Shown: piece after piece, positions 12,320 to 28,039 of the stretch
Position numbering within the stretch: the first letter of the stretch is position 1
Layout: every line of letters begins with the position of its first letter
Origin: Eubacteriales bacterium
Lineage (GTDB): Bacteria; Bacillota; Clostridia; Lachnospirales; Lachnospiraceae
Direction of reading: 5' to 3'
Length of the DNA stretch: 55,927 bases
Assembly: GCA_030524785.1 (NCBI GenBank)
Contig: JAUNFZ010000008.1
Location: forward strand, 1 to 55,927
Position numbers and translations under genes: made by a program
Notes under the pieces: generated by a model
Database searches by the model: none
Seen by the model: only the letters and a program-made list of their open reading frames with translations
Told to the model about the DNA's origin: nothing

Positions 12320-12390
12320 GCAGATATGGTTCATCGGTAGAACGCTAGCTTCCCAAGCTGGAAAGGCGGGTTCGACTCCCGTTATCTGCT
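12320..12390 (+). tRNA. tRNA-Gly(CCC)
   Basis: A 71-nt cloverleaf. The acceptor stem GCAGATA pairs with TATCTGC. The D arm is GTTC/GAAC around a GG-containing loop. The anticodon stem CTAGC/GCTGG encloses TTCCCAA, giving anticodon CCC. The T arm is GCGGG-TTCGACT-CCCGT. No CCA is encoded. It is a single gene between strong terminators. Confidence 0.93.
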
Positions 12391-12410
12391 CTCTGAAATC
12401 CTTGATTTTA

Positions 12411-13749: not shown

Positions 13750-13823
13750 AGGCAGAGAACGATTTTTAAGGTGAAGTTTTCAAAATGAGGTTTTCAAAAT
13801 AAGGTATATCGACGAACGCTCCG

Positions 13824-13865
13824 TTCTGTGGTATGATAGTAAACGTACGATTATGAACCACAGAA
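13824..13865 (+). promoter_or_regulatory. Dyad spanning the probable promoter of the TetM-NYN gene
   Basis: The 9-bp arms TTCTGTGGT (13824-13832) and ACCACAGAA (13857-13865) flank a possible -10 element, TATGAT (13832-13837). The right arm touches the ribosome binding site AAAGGGG. It could be an operator, or an RNA stem if transcription starts further upstream. Confidence 0.45.
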
Positions 13866-13878
13866 AGGGGCGTTTTCT

Positions 13879-16611
13879 ATGGGAAATTCCTCGGAAGAAA
13901 ATAAATCAGAGAGTATGCTTTCGGAAAATCTCTGCGTTGGTATTCTGGCCCATGTGGATGCGGGAAAGACGACGCTGGCGGAAAATATCCTTTTTCGATG
14001 CGGGAGCATCCGAACGATGGGGAGAGTAGATCACGGCAATACGTTTCTTGACAATTACGAACTGGAGCGTGCCAGGGGGATCACAATCTTTTCCAAACAG
14101 GCGCAGTTTCGTCTGGGCAACCGGGAGATAACGCTTCTGGATACGCCCGGACATGCAGATTTTTCGGCGGAGATGGAACGGACGCTGCAGGTGATCGATT
14201 ACGCAATTCTGGTGATCAGCGGCGCGGATGGGGTACAGGGACATGTAACGACGCTCTGGAGGCTTTTGGAGCGCTACAGGATTCCTGTGTTTCTGTTTGT
14301 CAACAAAATGGACAGAGAGGAAACGGACCAGGAGGAGCTTTTGAGGGAACTGAGAAAAAAGCTTCATGAGCACTGCATTGATTTCGGCAGACCACCGGCG
14401 GAAATATATGAGGAGCTGGCGCTCTGTGATGAAAAGGTACTGGAGCATTACCTGGAGACGGAGCATGTGACTGATGATGAAATTAGGCAGTTGATTAAAA
14501 AGCGCCGGGCCTTCCCGTGCTATTTTGGCTCTGCGCTGAAGGACAGCGGCGTGGAGGAGCTTCTGCAGGGCATTGAGGCCTATGCGGCGGGCAGAAAATA
14601 TCCGGAGGAGTTTGGAGCGAGAGTTTATAAAGTGTCCAGAGACGCCCAGGGAAACCGGCTGACACATATGAAAATTACCGGAGGCTGCCTGAAAGTAAAA
14701 ATGCCTCTGGCGGCAGGTCCCATATCGGAGGGACAGAGGCGCCAGGAGAAAGCAGATCAGATACGAATTTATTCCGGAGCCGGATACCGCGGGGTATCTG
14801 AAGCGCCGGCGGGATGCGTGTGCGCTGTCACAGGGCTTACCGGGATTCTGCCGGGAGAGGGGCTTGGCTTTGAACAGGAATTTGTAGAGCCGGTGCTGGA
14901 ACCGGTGCTTCGGTATCAGATGATATTGCCGGAGGGGTGCGACGCCTATGAGATGCTTGCCAGACTGCGCCAGCTGGAGGAAGAAGATCCGCAGCTTCAC
15001 CTCGTCTGGGAGGAAGCGTCAAAGGAAATTCATGTGCAGGTGATGGGCGAAATTCAGACGGAGATATTAAAGAGCCTGATTGAAGAACGTTTTGGAATTT
15101 CGGTTTCTTTTGGAAGCGGCAGCATTGTTTATAAGGAGACGATTGCAGAAGCGGCGGAGGGGATAGGCCATTTCGAACCGCTGCGCCATTATGCGGAGGT
15201 ACATTTGCTGCTGAAACCCGGGAAACGGGGAAGCGGCCTGGTATTTCGCGCAGACTGCAGCGAGGATATGCTGGATCGAAACTGGCAGAGGCTGATCATA
15301 TCGGAGCTTGCCGGAGCCCGTCACAGGGGTGTTTTGACCGGGGCTGAGATTACAGATATGGAGATTACGGTAATTGGCGGACGAGCCCATTTAAAACATA
15401 CCGAGGGCGGTGATTTCCGCCAGGCGGCGTGCCGCGCACTGAGGCAGGGGTTAAAAAGTACACAGAATATTTTGCTGGAGCCTGTCTTTTTCTTTCGGCT
15501 GGAAGTGCCGGAGGAAAACATTGGACGGGCGATGTCGGATATTACAAGGATGAATGGAGAATTTTCAGGACCTGAATCGGAGGGCGAATACGCCGTTTTG
15601 TCAGGCAGCGTTCCGGCGGCATGCCTTGGGGATTATCAGAGAGAGGTAGTCGCCTATACCAGGGGACGGGGACGCCTGTTTTGTTCTCTGAAGGGATATG
15701 AACCCTGCCATAATGCAGAAGAAATCATAGAAGCTTCCGGGTATGATGCAGAGGCGGATACAGAATATCCAACTGGTTCCATATTCTGCGCCCATGGAGC
15801 AGGGTTTTACGTTCCCTGGGACCGGGTACGGGAATATATGCATGTAGACTGCGGGAATCCCGCCGGACCCAAGGCGCTTTCTGAGAACGATACGGCGGCA
15901 GGAAACAGAGACAGAGCTTCTGAAGTGTCCGGCGCTGCCCTTGACAGGGAACTGGAGGAAATATTTACACGTACCTACGGAGCCGGAAAAGAGGAGAGAA
16001 GCGGCTGGGGCAGAAAGAGAATGGAACCGGCAAGACGGGCCGAGACAGGGAAGGCTGTGGGGCCGGCAAACCAGCCAAAAGACGAATATCTTCTCGTAGA
16101 CGGATATAATATTATCTTTGCCTGGGAGGAACTGAAGGAGCTGGCAAAGATTAATATTGAGAGCGCCAGGGGAAAGCTGATGGATATCCTCTGCAATTAT
16201 CAGGGGTATAAACAGAATACGCTGATTTTAGTATTTGACGCTTATAAGGTGTCCGGCGGTGTGGGAAGCGTTCAAAAGTATCACAATATTTATGTGGTAT
16301 TTACCCGGGAAGCGGAGACGGCTGACCAGTATATAGAAAAAGCAGTTCATGAGATCAGCGCCGGATATCGGGTGACGGTAGCCACATCGGATGCGCTGGA
16401 GCAGATGATTATATGGGGAGCCGGGGCTTTTAGAATGTCGGCAGCGGAACTGAAAGAGGAAATCTGCGCTGTAAGCCGGGAAATGCGTGAGCAGTTTCTT
16501 AATCAGCGCCCGGACGGCGGCAGCGGCCGTTTGTTTGATGGCCTGCCTGAAGAACTGAACAGGCATATGGAGGAAGTCCGGCTTGGAAAAAAGAAATTTG
16601 GAGAAACATAA
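13879..16611 (+). CDS. TetM-like ribosomal GTPase fused to a YacP/Rae1-type NYN endonuclease
   Basis: A 910-residue fusion. Residues about 18-612 follow the domain order of TetM/EF-G: G1 AHVDAGKTT (from 24), switch RARGITIF, G3 DTPGH (88-92), G4 NKMD (142-145), domain IV about 440-530 and domain V about 532-612. A conserved stretch with PTGSIFCAHGAGF and a charged linker lead to an NYN/PIN nuclease (735-900). Its likely catalytic acids are D741 in LLVDGYN, LVFDAYK, EAETADQYIEK and TSDALEQ. YacP of B. subtilis (Rae1) is a ribosome-associated mRNA endonuclease. Both halves therefore point to the ribosomal A site. Tetracycline resistance is possible but not implied by the fusion. Confidence 0.85.
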   Translation: MGNSSEENKSESMLSENLCVGILAHVDAGKTTLAENILFRCGSIRTMGRVDHGNTFLDNYELERARGITIFSKQAQFRLGNREITLLDTPGHADFSAEMERTLQVIDYAILVISGADGVQGHVTTLWRLLERYRIPVFLFVNKMDREETDQEELLRELRKKLHEHCIDFGRPPAEIYEELALCDEKVLEHYLETEHVTDDEIRQLIKKRRAFPCYFGSALKDSGVEELLQGIEAYAAGRKYPEEFGARVYKVSRDAQGNRLTHMKITGGCLKVKMPLAAGPISEGQRRQEKADQIRIYSGAGYRGVSEAPAGCVCAVTGLTGILPGEGLGFEQEFVEPVLEPVLRYQMILPEGCDAYEMLARLRQLEEEDPQLHLVWEEASKEIHVQVMGEIQTEILKSLIEERFGISVSFGSGSIVYKETIAEAAEGIGHFEPLRHYAEVHLLLKPGKRGSGLVFRADCSEDMLDRNWQRLIISELAGARHRGVLTGAEITDMEITVIGGRAHLKHTEGGDFRQAACRALRQGLKSTQNILLEPVFFFRLEVPEENIGRAMSDITRMNGEFSGPESEGEYAVLSGSVPAACLGDYQREVVAYTRGRGRLFCSLKGYEPCHNAEEIIEASGYDAEADTEYPTGSIFCAHGAGFYVPWDRVREYMHVDCGNPAGPKALSENDTAAGNRDRASEVSGAALDRELEEIFTRTYGAGKEERSGWGRKRMEPARRAETGKAVGPANQPKDEYLLVDGYNIIFAWEELKELAKINIESARGKLMDILCNYQGYKQNTLILVFDAYKVSGGVGSVQKYHNIYVVFTREAETADQYIEKAVHEISAGYRVTVATSDALEQMIIWGAGAFRMSAAELKEEICAVSREMREQFLNQRPDGGSGRLFDGLPEELNRHMEEVRLGKKKFGET

Positions 16612-16700: not shown

Positions 16701-16736
16701 AATACCAGCGACTGGGAATAATTGGAGGATGGACTT

Positions 16737-17534
16737 TTGGAAAAATTACATGTGGCAATTGCAGACGATAATGAGAGAATGGTGCAGCTTTTAGAGGATA
16801 TTGTCAGAAGCGACAGGGATCTGGAGGTTGTGGGAAAGGCGGGCAACGGAGAAGATCTGATCAATATTATACGTCAGAAGGAGCCGGACGTTGTGCTGCT
16901 GGATATTATTATGCCGAAGGTGGACGGGCTGAATGTGATGGAGAAGATCAATCTGGACACGACGATTAAGAAGCGTCCGGCATTTATTGTCATTACGGCG
17001 ATTGGACAGGAAAAGATCACAGAGAATGCCTTTGACCTTGGAGCAGATTATTACATATTAAAACCCTTTGACAACGAGATGGTGCTGAACCGCATCAAGC
17101 ATCTGCACAGGGAGCGGGAACGCAACTTTGCGCAGGTACGCAAAGTGAACGCCTATGAAAGCAAGACAGAATATATGGAACGGAATCTCGAGACGGATGT
17201 GACGAATATTATTCACGAAATTGGCGTTCCGGCACATATCAAGGGATATCAGTACCTGCGGGATGCGATCATCATGTCCATAGGCGATATGGAAATGCTC
17301 AATTCTATCACAAAGATTTTGTATCCGACTATTGCCAAAAAGCATCAGACGACGCCGAGCCGTGTGGAGCGTGCCATACGCCATGCGATCGAGGTGGCCT
17401 GGAGCCGGGGAAAAATGGATACGATTGACGAGCTTTTTGGCTATACGGTCAATGGCGGAAAGGGCAAGCCCACAAATTCAGAATTTATTGCCCTGATTGC
17501 AGATAAAGTGCGTCTGGAATATAAAAACCGGTAA
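16737..17534 (+). CDS. spo0A: Sporulation master regulator Spo0A
   Basis: A 265-residue response regulator. The receiver domain has acidic residues D10 and D11 and phospho-acceptor D56 in [13 protein letters not shown]. The C-terminal Spo0A DNA-binding domain (about 155-265) contains [20 protein letters not shown], the recognition helix region. The start is a TTG with GGAGG at 16724-16728 and 8-nt spacing; the TTG at 16722 overlaps that site and is rejected. In many Clostridia spoIVB lies directly upstream; here the TetM-NYN gene does. Confidence 0.95.
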
Positions 17535-25948: not shown

Positions 25949-28039
25949 ATGAAAGTTTATACAACAGACAGGATTCGCAACGTGGTGATTTTGGGACATG
26001 GCGGAGCAGGAAAGACATCTCTGACAGAAGCAATGGCCTATTTGTCCGGTATTACCAGCCGTATGGGAAGCGTAACAGAAGGAAATACGGTGAGTGATTA
26101 TGATAAAGAGGAAACAAAGAGAAAGTTTTCAATCAGCACATCCATCGTGCCGATTATCTGGGGCGATATCAAAGTGAATATTCTGGACACACCAGGTTAT
26201 TTCGACTTTGTGGGCGAGGCTGAGGAAGCGGCTGCCGCTGCGGACGCGGCTGTGATTGTTGTAAACGGAAAGAGCGGCGTGGAGGTTGGAACCCAGAAAG
26301 CATGGGAACTCTGCGAAAAATATAAACTGCCCAGAATGTTCTTCATCAGCAATATGGATGTAGACAACGCAAGCTTCCGTCAGGTGGTGGAGGATTTGGA
26401 GGGACTTTATGGCAAAAAGATTGCCCCGATCCATTTCCCGATTCGTGAAAACGAAAAATTTGTGGGTTATGTAAATGTGGTAAAGAAAGCGGGACGCCGC
26501 TGGGCAGCCAAAGGAGAAAAGGTGGAGTGTGATATCCCCGATTACTCCATGGAATACCTGGAGAAATACCGTGAAAATCTTTTGGAGGCAGTTGCGGAAA
26601 CTTCCGAGGAATTTATGGACCGCTATTTTGCCGGCGAGGAGTTTTCCACGGCAGAGATTATGGCTGCGCTGACAATGAACGTATCCGACTGTTCGATTGT
26701 TCCGGTGGCGATGGGTTCACCCGTAAATCTGCAGGGCGTTTCCAACCTGCTGGACGACATGGTACAGTATTTCCCGAGTCCGGATAAGCGTCAGATCGCC
26801 GGCATTAATATGAAAACGAACGAGATCTACGAGGCAAATTACGATTTTGCCAAGGCAAAATCCGCATTTGTATTCAAGACCATCGTAGACCCGTTTATTG
26901 GAAAGTATTCTCTGATTAAAGTGGCTTCCGGCGTAATCAAGAACGACGATACGCTTTACAATCCCCGCAGGGAGGCAGAGGTAAAATTAAGTAAGCTCTA
27001 TGTGATGGAGGGAAGCAAGCCTGTTGAAATCTCCGAGCTTCATGCCGGCGACATCGGCGCGATTGGAAAGCTGAACGAGACGAGAACCGGAGATTCCCTG
27101 GCGACAAAGACGACCCCGATCCAGTATGCCGGCATTGATGTTTCTGTGCCGTATACCTACAAGAGATACTTTGCAAAGACGAAGGGCGACGAGGATAAGA
27201 TCTCCCAGGCCCTTGCAAAGATGATGCAGGAGGATCTTACCATGAAGGCAGTCAATGATGCGGAAAACCGCCAGACGCTGCTTTACGGTATGGGCGATCA
27301 GCATCTGGACATTATTGTCAGCAAGCTTTTGGGCAAGTATAAGATAGAGGTGGAACTTGACCGGCCGAAGGTCGCTTTCCGGGAGACAATCCGCAAAAAC
27401 TCTGATGTGGAGGCAAAATATAAAAAGCAGTCCGGAGGACATGGACAGTACGGCCACGTAAAGATGCGTTTTGAAAACTCCGGCGATCCGGAAACGCCGT
27501 ATATCTTTGAACAGGTGGTTGTAGGCGGAGCAGTTCCGAAGAACTACTTCCCGGCAGTAGAGAAGGGAATTCAGGACTCCGTTATGAGAGGACCTCTGGC
27601 AGCGTATCCGGTGGTAGGCGTGAAGGCTACGCTGTATGATGGATCTTACCATCCGGTGGATTCCTCTGAAATGGCATTCAAGACGGCGGCAAGCCAGGCC
27701 TTTAAGAAAGGCTTTATGGAGGCTTCTCCCGTACTTCTTGAGCCGATCGCTTCTCTGAAGGTAACAGTGCCGGATAAATATACCGGCGATGTTATGGGCG
27801 ATCTCAATAAGCGCCGCGGCCGTGTACTGGGTATGAACCCGGATCACAAAGGCAACCAGATCATCGAGGCGGATGTTCCGATGATGGAGCTTTATGGATA
27901 TTCCACACAGCTTCGTTCCATGACGGGCGGAAGCGGAACCTTTGCTTATGAATTTGCAAGATACGAGCAGGCTCCGTCGGATATTCAGGCCAAGGAAGTA
28001 GAAGCAAGGGCAAGCAAAGTAAATACAAACGAGGACTAA
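25949..28039 (+). CDS. EF-G paralogue (EF-G2 type) with altered GTPase motifs
   Basis: The 696-residue protein has the full EF-G domain order. The G domain differs from canonical EF-G: P-loop GHGGAGKT (16-23), G3 DTPGYFDF with Tyr84 replacing the catalytic histidine, and SNMD (134-137) in place of NKMD. The switch I RGIT motif is missing (KRKFSIST). Domain IV retains QSGGHGQYGHV and domain V GDVMGDLNKRRGR. These changes are typical of the EF-G2 subfamily; an EF-G2 of Bacteroides thetaiotaomicron is reported to work without GTP hydrolysis. The main EF-G is presumably encoded elsewhere, with the str operon. Confidence 0.88.
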   Translation: MKVYTTDRIRNVVILGHGGAGKTSLTEAMAYLSGITSRMGSVTEGNTVSDYDKEETKRKFSISTSIVPIIWGDIKVNILDTPGYFDFVGEAEEAAAAADAAVIVVNGKSGVEVGTQKAWELCEKYKLPRMFFISNMDVDNASFRQVVEDLEGLYGKKIAPIHFPIRENEKFVGYVNVVKKAGRRWAAKGEKVECDIPDYSMEYLEKYRENLLEAVAETSEEFMDRYFAGEEFSTAEIMAALTMNVSDCSIVPVAMGSPVNLQGVSNLLDDMVQYFPSPDKRQIAGINMKTNEIYEANYDFAKAKSAFVFKTIVDPFIGKYSLIKVASGVIKNDDTLYNPRREAEVKLSKLYVMEGSKPVEISELHAGDIGAIGKLNETRTGDSLATKTTPIQYAGIDVSVPYTYKRYFAKTKGDEDKISQALAKMMQEDLTMKAVNDAENRQTLLYGMGDQHLDIIVSKLLGKYKIEVELDRPKVAFRETIRKNSDVEAKYKKQSGGHGQYGHVKMRFENSGDPETPYIFEQVVVGGAVPKNYFPAVEKGIQDSVMRGPLAAYPVVGVKATLYDGSYHPVDSSEMAFKTAASQAFKKGFMEASPVLLEPIASLKVTVPDKYTGDVMGDLNKRRGRVLGMNPDHKGNQIIEADVPMMELYGYSTQLRSMTGGSGTFAYEFARYEQAPSDIQAKEVEARASKVNTNED

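Follow-up and report, generated by a model that had tools for sequence, protein, structure and literature searches.

A translational GTPase carrying the Rae1 nuclease as its C-terminal domain in Clostridium-related gut bacteria

The window described here, a stretch of 55,927 nt on contig JAUNFZ010000008.1 of a Eubacteriales bacterium (family Lachnospiraceae), encodes a fusion of a translational GTPase with a nuclease domain of the Rae1/YacP type. Many Clostridium-related gut bacteria seem to keep Rae1 only as the tail of this ribosome-binding GTPase and no longer as a free protein. In a large part of the class to which the window belongs the fusion replaces free Rae1: of the 188 sampled genomes that carry the NYN domain, 99 have it in the joined form alone. 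Our analysis suggests that the fusion is a candidate factor for clearing stalled ribosomes and not an ordinary tetracycline-resistance gene. Rae1 of Bacillus subtilis has been described as an mRNA nuclease of the ribosomal A site (PMC6613710, PMC12320835); the fusion turns the vague question of how Rae1 reaches this site, and what it needs there, into a testable one.

The initial annotation of this DNA had placed a GTPase and a nuclease module in one protein, and this is what we find: 13879-16611 on the forward strand is a single uninterrupted frame with an ATG start that encodes 910 amino acids (aa), with Pfam matches for both modules. In this protein (the query; residues numbered 1-910), residues 1-655 form a complete translational GTPase of the elongation factor G (EF-G)/Tet type, followed by an 80-residue linker and the Rae1/YacP NYN domain (NYN_YacP, 165.6 bits against a curated cut-off of 24.6). 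The comparison of proteins with this domain order covered 133 distinct fusions, including 19 of 20 diverse ones; L165, broken in frame, and L086, split by a stop, were left out. At 79 of the 80 named loci kept, which are the best 80 of at least 593 candidates, both modules share one open frame, L086 being the 80th. Chance joining is excluded, since the NYN domain lies within a long frame at these 79 loci and in 99 of 291 class genomes. As the named loci are all close relatives, conservation was rechecked with the 20 diverse fusions.

The architecture itself is already in print. In two sentences and a Background mention, Atkinson 2015 noted that Tet proteins from ten species of clostridia have an NYN domain resembling that of YacP, proposed an rRNA-RNase ability or a new resistance mechanism, and quoted a 2006 proposal that NYN domains act on rRNA and tRNA precursors (PMC4342817). 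The window protein has the same architecture and almost certainly belongs to this family, which is noted but unstudied in the literature that we searched; Condon 2018, on the distribution of Rae1, may mention the fusion. The passages on the fusion in Atkinson 2015 do not mention the replacement of Rae1, a single origin, a domain-IV signature, a linker helix or a leader palindrome. New here are the conservation of the NYN acids, the replacement of free Rae1, the separate GTPase clade with its own domain-IV tip, the linker helix and the leader palindrome.

Distribution of fused and free Rae1

Our class sample comprised 291 genomes that the collection places in the same class as the window. Here and in the phylum sample described below, a copy was called fused or free according to how long the open frame containing its NYN match is, and shared descent makes genome counts non-independent throughout. 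NYN_YacP was detected in 188 of the 291 genomes, as a single copy in 187 and as two copies, both fused, in G152 (61% complete). These 188 divide into 99 fused (NYN inside a frame of at least 734 aa), 82 free, six ambiguous at contig ends or frame breaks, and one (G183) unlisted. No genome with both forms was found among the 99 fused and 82 free, where the counts would predict about 28 if the two forms were independent, a contrast that shared descent inflates. Both forms occur in four families (fused/free: f1, 9/1; f32, 6/2; f33, 2/4; f37, 4/1), while 20 families are fused-only and 26 free-only. In the phylum sample, which shares four genomes with the class sample, the domain was found in 98 of 179 genomes, always once: 12 fused (nine of them outside the class), 85 free and one ambiguous.

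The free yacP gene adjoins rlmB in 20 of the 22 genomes examined, which are not a random draw, and a sigH-like gene was found in 19. The exceptions to the rlmB neighbourhood are G262, where neither gene was found, and G281, where only sigH was. We identified rlmB with TIGR00186 in G014, G015 and G016 and with blastp in the other genomes; its companion is presumably sigH, a label taken from the B. subtilis gene order. The fusion gene does not lie at this rlmB-rae1-sigH locus and occupies an unrelated position. No NYN domain follows rlmB in any of the eight fused genomes that show that side (a ninth, G002, is cut by a contig end), and in one of the fused genomes, G008, the rlmB and sigH frames stand about 38 nt apart with nothing between them. 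Because the fusion replaces free Rae1, the link to this nuclease is stronger than the initial annotation, which had drawn the comparison, could know.

An unfused orthologue of the GTPase coexists with a free YacP in nine genomes (G017, G087, G140, G164, G208, G230, G262, G281 and G287), and the GTPase occurs without any NYN match in six others (G048, G053, G081, G097, G202 and G226). In G262, from the window's family, the free YacP lies away from rlmB and sigH, and an unfused GTPase is encoded as well (L146, L126); this genome is a candidate for fission of the fusion or for regain by transfer. A mobile gene was considered and rejected, as only 2 of 1030 matching plasmid records cover at least 80% of the query. 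The NYN part matches 13 phage records.

Conservation of the GTPase, linker and nuclease

The five-domain EF-G-like architecture of the window protein was confirmed by Pfam (EFG_III 354-412, EFG_IV 415-527 and EFG_C 532-612), AlphaFold2 and fold alignment. The AlphaFold2 model of the full 910 aa has a mean predicted local distance difference test score (pLDDT) of 87.4 and a predicted template modelling score (pTM) of 0.72; its residues 15..652 align with residues 1..639 of TetM (3j9y_w), and the tail at 613-655 overlaps the TetM C-terminal extension. The G1, G3 and G4 motifs, previously reported as intact, are indeed whole in the window protein (AHVDAGKTT at 24-32, DTPGH at 88-92 and NKMD at 142-145). 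Among the 133 fusions, D27, G29, K30, T31 and T32 of G1 are kept in 132 (one gap), H25 in 130 and A28 in 116; in G3 and G4, D88-H92, N142, K143 and D145 are kept in all 133 and M144 in 124.

The initial annotation described this module as TetM/EF-G-like. A complete EF-G/Tet-type GTPase is present, but it is not TetM: on the NCBIfam model tet_protect (NF012153) the window protein scores 417.3 bits, below the cut-off of 775, and another fusion and three unfused orthologues score 393-430, whereas all four Tet proteins of related genomes that served as a control pass with 811-853 bits. In a quick tree of 82 rows, 43 fused GTPases form one clade (Shimodaira-Hasegawa-like approximate likelihood ratio test, SH-aLRT, 99) next to 18 unfused orthologues. 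A branch of 1.32 (SH-aLRT 100) separates these 61 family GTPases from a set of 13 proteins, tetracycline-type and related, and the window GTPase falls outside the clade of Tet proteins; the long rows L162 and L187 and an odd letter make-up were flagged in this tree. The fusion arose once on the GTPase tree. Unfused orthologues end right behind the SVFC..G..V.W...MH tail (17 of 18 by motif, L122 by eye), and so the linker and NYN domain were added behind residue 655.

The tip of domain IV carries a signature of its own. Across the 133 fusions, GHFEPLRHYAEV and HxKHTEGGDF are nearly invariant, and the loop III pattern HxKHTxGGDF is common to fused and unfused family members; the window protein has neither the YSPV-type loop of Tet proteins (YYSPVSTPADF) nor that of EF-G (YHxVDSSEMAF). 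H504, present in 132 of 133 fusions, corresponds in loop III to an EF-G histidine that we take to be His583 of Escherichia coli. In TetM, Pro509 overlaps bound tetracycline (PMC7456112), and a TetM with a triple loop mutation is still active (PMC4750697). The difference in loop III therefore argues against drug release without excluding it, since the triple mutant still works.

A relative of the window protein occurs in 105 of 120 family genomes, and judged by the open frame about 99 of these relatives are fusions. The fusion is accompanied in 12 of the 120 by a Tet-like protein of 643-644 aa, which was identified solely from its length and 30-32% identity; the four Tet proteins checked on tet_protect are others. 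The separate clade, the different domain-IV tip, the missed cut-off and this co-occurrence bear out the earlier view that the gene is not one for plain tetracycline resistance. Among the plasmid records, H2 and H4-H12 carry the annotation TetM-family tetracycline resistance for a fused relative from Agathobacter rectalis and for unfused orthologues from plasmids of Ligilactobacillus salivarius; the unfused match stops at the fusion point (residue 655-657). Because some relatives are annotated in this way while tested members miss the tet_protect cut-off, counts of tetracycline resistance in gut genomes may be inflated.

The window genome also has an EF-G of its own (L188, G000:C47). A second EF-G-like GTPase in the window (696 aa, 25949-28039) groups in the tree with a G014 paralogue, apart from the standard EF-Gs. 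L134, L135, L136 and L183 form another EF-G/Tet-related group, whose loop III (HxxHSN/HTxPxDF) is unlike that of Tet, EF-G and the fusion family; L134-L136 are about 33% identical to the window GTPase.

The linker, 68-143 residues long (median 83) among the 133 fusions, contains a conserved predicted helix. ELxxIFxRTYG, a pattern drawn after the rows were seen, matches 116 of the 133 fusions and none of 1330 shuffles; 16 of the 17 rows that lack it show a near variant by eye, and a tighter pattern matched 80 of 133. The 18 residues behind the motif are basic (median +4). The helix and its basic stretch may be a ribosome-docking motif.

In the nuclease domain, D741, D787, D816 and D838, together with E820, align with B. 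subtilis YacP (5mq9, E 7e-29), and the catalytic residues of the window domain and of B. subtilis Rae1 are the same in this alignment. The four acidic positions pointed out in the initial annotation proved conserved wherever a row extends far enough: all 133 fusions have D741 and D787, and 132 have D816, E820 and D838, the missing row (L097) being cut by a contig end. The loss of catalytic acids among homologues, which the initial annotation had named as a refutation, is not observed. All five residues are also present in 20 of 20 free copies compared, and core NYN residues are identical between 132 fused and the 20 free domains. E813 is replaced by Q in 29 of the 133 fusions.

The C-terminal end of the domain is relaxed in fused forms. 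R852, E857 and R901 are kept in 20, 18 and 19 of 20 free domains and in 89, 60 and 58 of 132 fused ones, and the profile match stops at or before position 158 of 166 in 62 of 98 fused against 1 of 82 free copies (G100, the 99th fused copy, is cut by a contig end and was left out). The early profile end may represent loss or divergence. This region includes the position of B. subtilis Rae1 R166 (numbered by alignment with 5mq9); a proline substitution of this residue was obtained by selection as an allele without function (PMC6613710).

Leader element and gene neighbourhood

The features of the fusion gene and its leader are collected in Table 1. The inverted repeat overlaps the promoter-like element, and the whole leader element spans 13809-13881. 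The same promoter-like arrangement is found ahead of the gene in part of the Lachnospiraceae relatives. A leader alignment was built from 31 of 43 motif-bearing rows among 142 upstream regions (ten off-pattern rows and two duplicates were dropped); because the rows were chosen by the promoter-like motif, the invariance of the promoter is partly a product of selection and the pair counts lean towards structure. Over these 31 rows, pairing holds for 91.1% of the cells of the 12 outer pairs, compared with 52.5-63.1% when the arms are slid, and 24 cells are doubly changed against 6.5 in shuffles (0 of 500 shuffles as high). The RNA fold of the window leader has an energy of -31.5 kcal/mol (z -4.86).

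Table 1. Positions of the fusion gene, its protein segments and its leader in the window.
Feature	Position	Strand	Basis
Putative promoter, TCGACG-17-TATGAT, TG ahead of second hexamer	13809..13837	+	9/12 consensus positions
Imperfect inverted repeat of 18 bp, arms 13815-13832 and 13857-13874	13815..13874	+	3' arm contains Shine-Dalgarno
910-aa fusion: translational GTPase, linker, NYN/Rae1 nuclease	13879..16611	+	open frame, Pfam, AlphaFold2
GTP-binding domain, residues 18-235	13930..14583	+	PF00009 GTP_EFTU, E 5e-51
EF-G domains II-V, residues 245-612	14611..15714	+	
Domain-IV loop III, residues 501-513, GRAHLKHTEGGDF, family signature	15379..15417	+	alignment; unlike Tet YYSPVSTPADF
Conserved tail, residues 613-655, where unfused orthologues end	15715..15843	+	alignment, fold alignment
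Linker, residues 656-735, mostly disordered	15844..16083	+	AlphaFold2 pLDDT < 50 at 664-689, 699-730
Conserved linker helix, residues 686-700, ELEEIFTRTYG, then basic stretch	15934..15978	+	AlphaFold2 helix; motif count
NYN_YacP (Rae1) nuclease domain, residues 738-901	16090..16581	+	Pfam, E 1e-48

A model of the leader gave 16 hits (E up to 1.5e-6) in 120 family genomes, all directly upstream of the fusion gene; genomes included in the model account for at least 8 of these hits, and the search filters used for more than 40 genomes lose weak matches. Five weaker hits comprise three of the same sites on the opposite strand and two elsewhere (G371:C6 and G394:C157), and with a stricter pattern eight of nine hits lie upstream of the fusion gene, the ninth (G394) elsewhere. 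A genome-wide regulon was rejected, the strong hits being confined to the upstream region of the fusion gene in these 120 genomes, as was a LexA box (GAAC-N4/5-GTTC is not enriched among 123 upstream regions). No known RNA family was found in the leader at E up to 0.1. If transcription starts inside the repeat, the 5' arm would be absent from the message, and the hairpin would then silence only read-through transcripts. Alternatively, the inverted repeat may be a DNA operator.

Downstream, the fusion gene directly adjoins spo0A (16722-17534; Spo0A_C, E 1e-45), as initially annotated. This neighbourhood is not general: among the 80 named loci, several of which have short flanks, L009 and L010, apparently of the window's genus, are the only ones with Spo0A among the two genes that follow, and the commonest other neighbour was seen at 10 of 80. 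With Spo0A close in just these two relatives, we abandon the idea of a stress response before sporulation and, more broadly, a link to sporulation. The only tRNA found in the window is a tRNA-Gly (anticodon ccc) at 12320-12391.

Possible functions and relation to known systems

Both halves of the fusion point to the A site, since EF-G/Tet factors use domain IV there and Rae1 does so by its described activity. We propose that Rae1 left the rlmB-rae1-sigH locus and became the C-terminal domain of a GTPase from an EF-G/Tet-related subfamily of its own. The GTPase would probably bind ribosomes with an empty or blocked A site, insert domain IV, hydrolyse GTP and leave; the NYN domain, whose linker keeps its local concentration high, would then enter the vacated site and cut the mRNA, leading to ribosome rescue and degradation of the message. 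The initial annotation had suggested delivery of the nuclease to stalled or drug-bound ribosomes, which may hold; a simple EF-Tu-like delivery is unlikely, however, and a sequential hand-off is favoured, because an EF-G-type factor and Rae1 presumably need the same A site. The proposal builds on the intact motifs, the one NYN copy per genome, its absence from the old locus and the single origin on the GTPase tree; the nuclease activity, A-site mRNA as its substrate, the order of the two steps and the cause of stalling are inferred. We judge this mechanism, the likeliest of those considered, to be about evenly balanced between right and wrong. In its fullest form, namely a clear-and-cut rescue factor of single origin that replaced free Rae1 across many gut-bacterial families and in part of them is guarded by a leader palindrome hiding the Shine-Dalgarno sequence of read-through transcripts, the proposal is tentative and on the whole doubtful.

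Several observations weigh against joint action of the two halves. Domain IV and Rae1 would share the A site and so could not act together on one ribosome, and the replacement of free Rae1 shows that the NYN domain is kept, not that the GTPase helps it. Other genomes carry the two halves as separate genes; four families hold both fused-only and free-only genomes, so that a free Rae1 does not need the fusion; and no NYN match was found in 103 of the 291 class genomes, some of them incomplete. The window's own NYN domain has the full YacP length (profile match to 165 of 166), so that the eroded end seen in other fusions does not apply to it. Finally, the NYN tree rejects a single fused clade (approximately unbiased test, p 0.027): it groups five free domains of the order (G014, G017, G179, G262 and G281) with 42 of 43 fused ones, while the fused domain of L162, on a long branch, falls outside the others; the NYN piece of L086 was wrongly counted in the free group of this tree. 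The simplest reading would be that a rae1 from the order of the window was captured by the fusion, which then spread and in some cases later underwent fission or exchange.

In an explanation that we regard as unlikely, the chain carries two independent activities: the NYN domain would act as free Rae1 does, the GTPase would be a separate conditional translation factor, and the fusion would only fix their ratio or co-localise them on ribosomes. The nine genomes with separate genes and the six with the GTPase alone suggest that each half works by itself, and the long, mostly disordered linker is in keeping with this. The single origin of the fused clade, the absence of a free NYN domain from the fused genomes, the conserved linker helix and the lost or diverged YacP end of most fused forms argue instead for a connection between the halves.

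Quite improbable, in our estimation, is a protein for resistance to tetracycline or another A-site drug to which the RNase adds a new mechanism, as in Atkinson 2015. The tet_protect scores of the window and its relatives, their position outside the tetracycline clade, their loop III, and the presence of a relative in 105 of 120 family genomes, 12 of which combine the fusion with a Tet-like protein, all stand against it. Ribosomal GTPases commonly act in assembly, and free yacP adjoins the gene of an rRNA methylase, rlmB; a factor in which the GTPase guides the nuclease domain to precursors of rRNA or tRNA is nonetheless the least probable of these alternatives. Against it stand the domain IV of the GTPase, still EF-G-like and almost invariant at its tip, and the description of B. 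subtilis Rae1, whose catalytic residues are the same, as an mRNA nuclease of the A site (PMC6613710).

Compared with known systems, the fusion resembles B. subtilis Rae1/YacP (5mq8, 5mq9) in its NYN_YacP domain, its acids and its one copy per genome. Rae1/YacP is a free protein of 170 aa, encoded beside rlmB and a sigH-like gene in the window's relatives, whereas here it forms the C-terminal part of a GTPase of 910 aa encoded at an unrelated locus, and its YacP end is relaxed in most fusions though not in the window protein. With TetM and TetO (3j9y, 4v6v) the fusion shares the G motifs, the five-domain fold and the tail that overlaps the TetM C-terminal extension, but it forms a separate clade with another loop III, lies far below the tet_protect cut-off and carries an additional linker and nuclease. 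With EF-G it shares the fold and the nearly invariant loop III histidine, H504, although the rest of this loop differs and a separate EF-G is encoded in the same genome.
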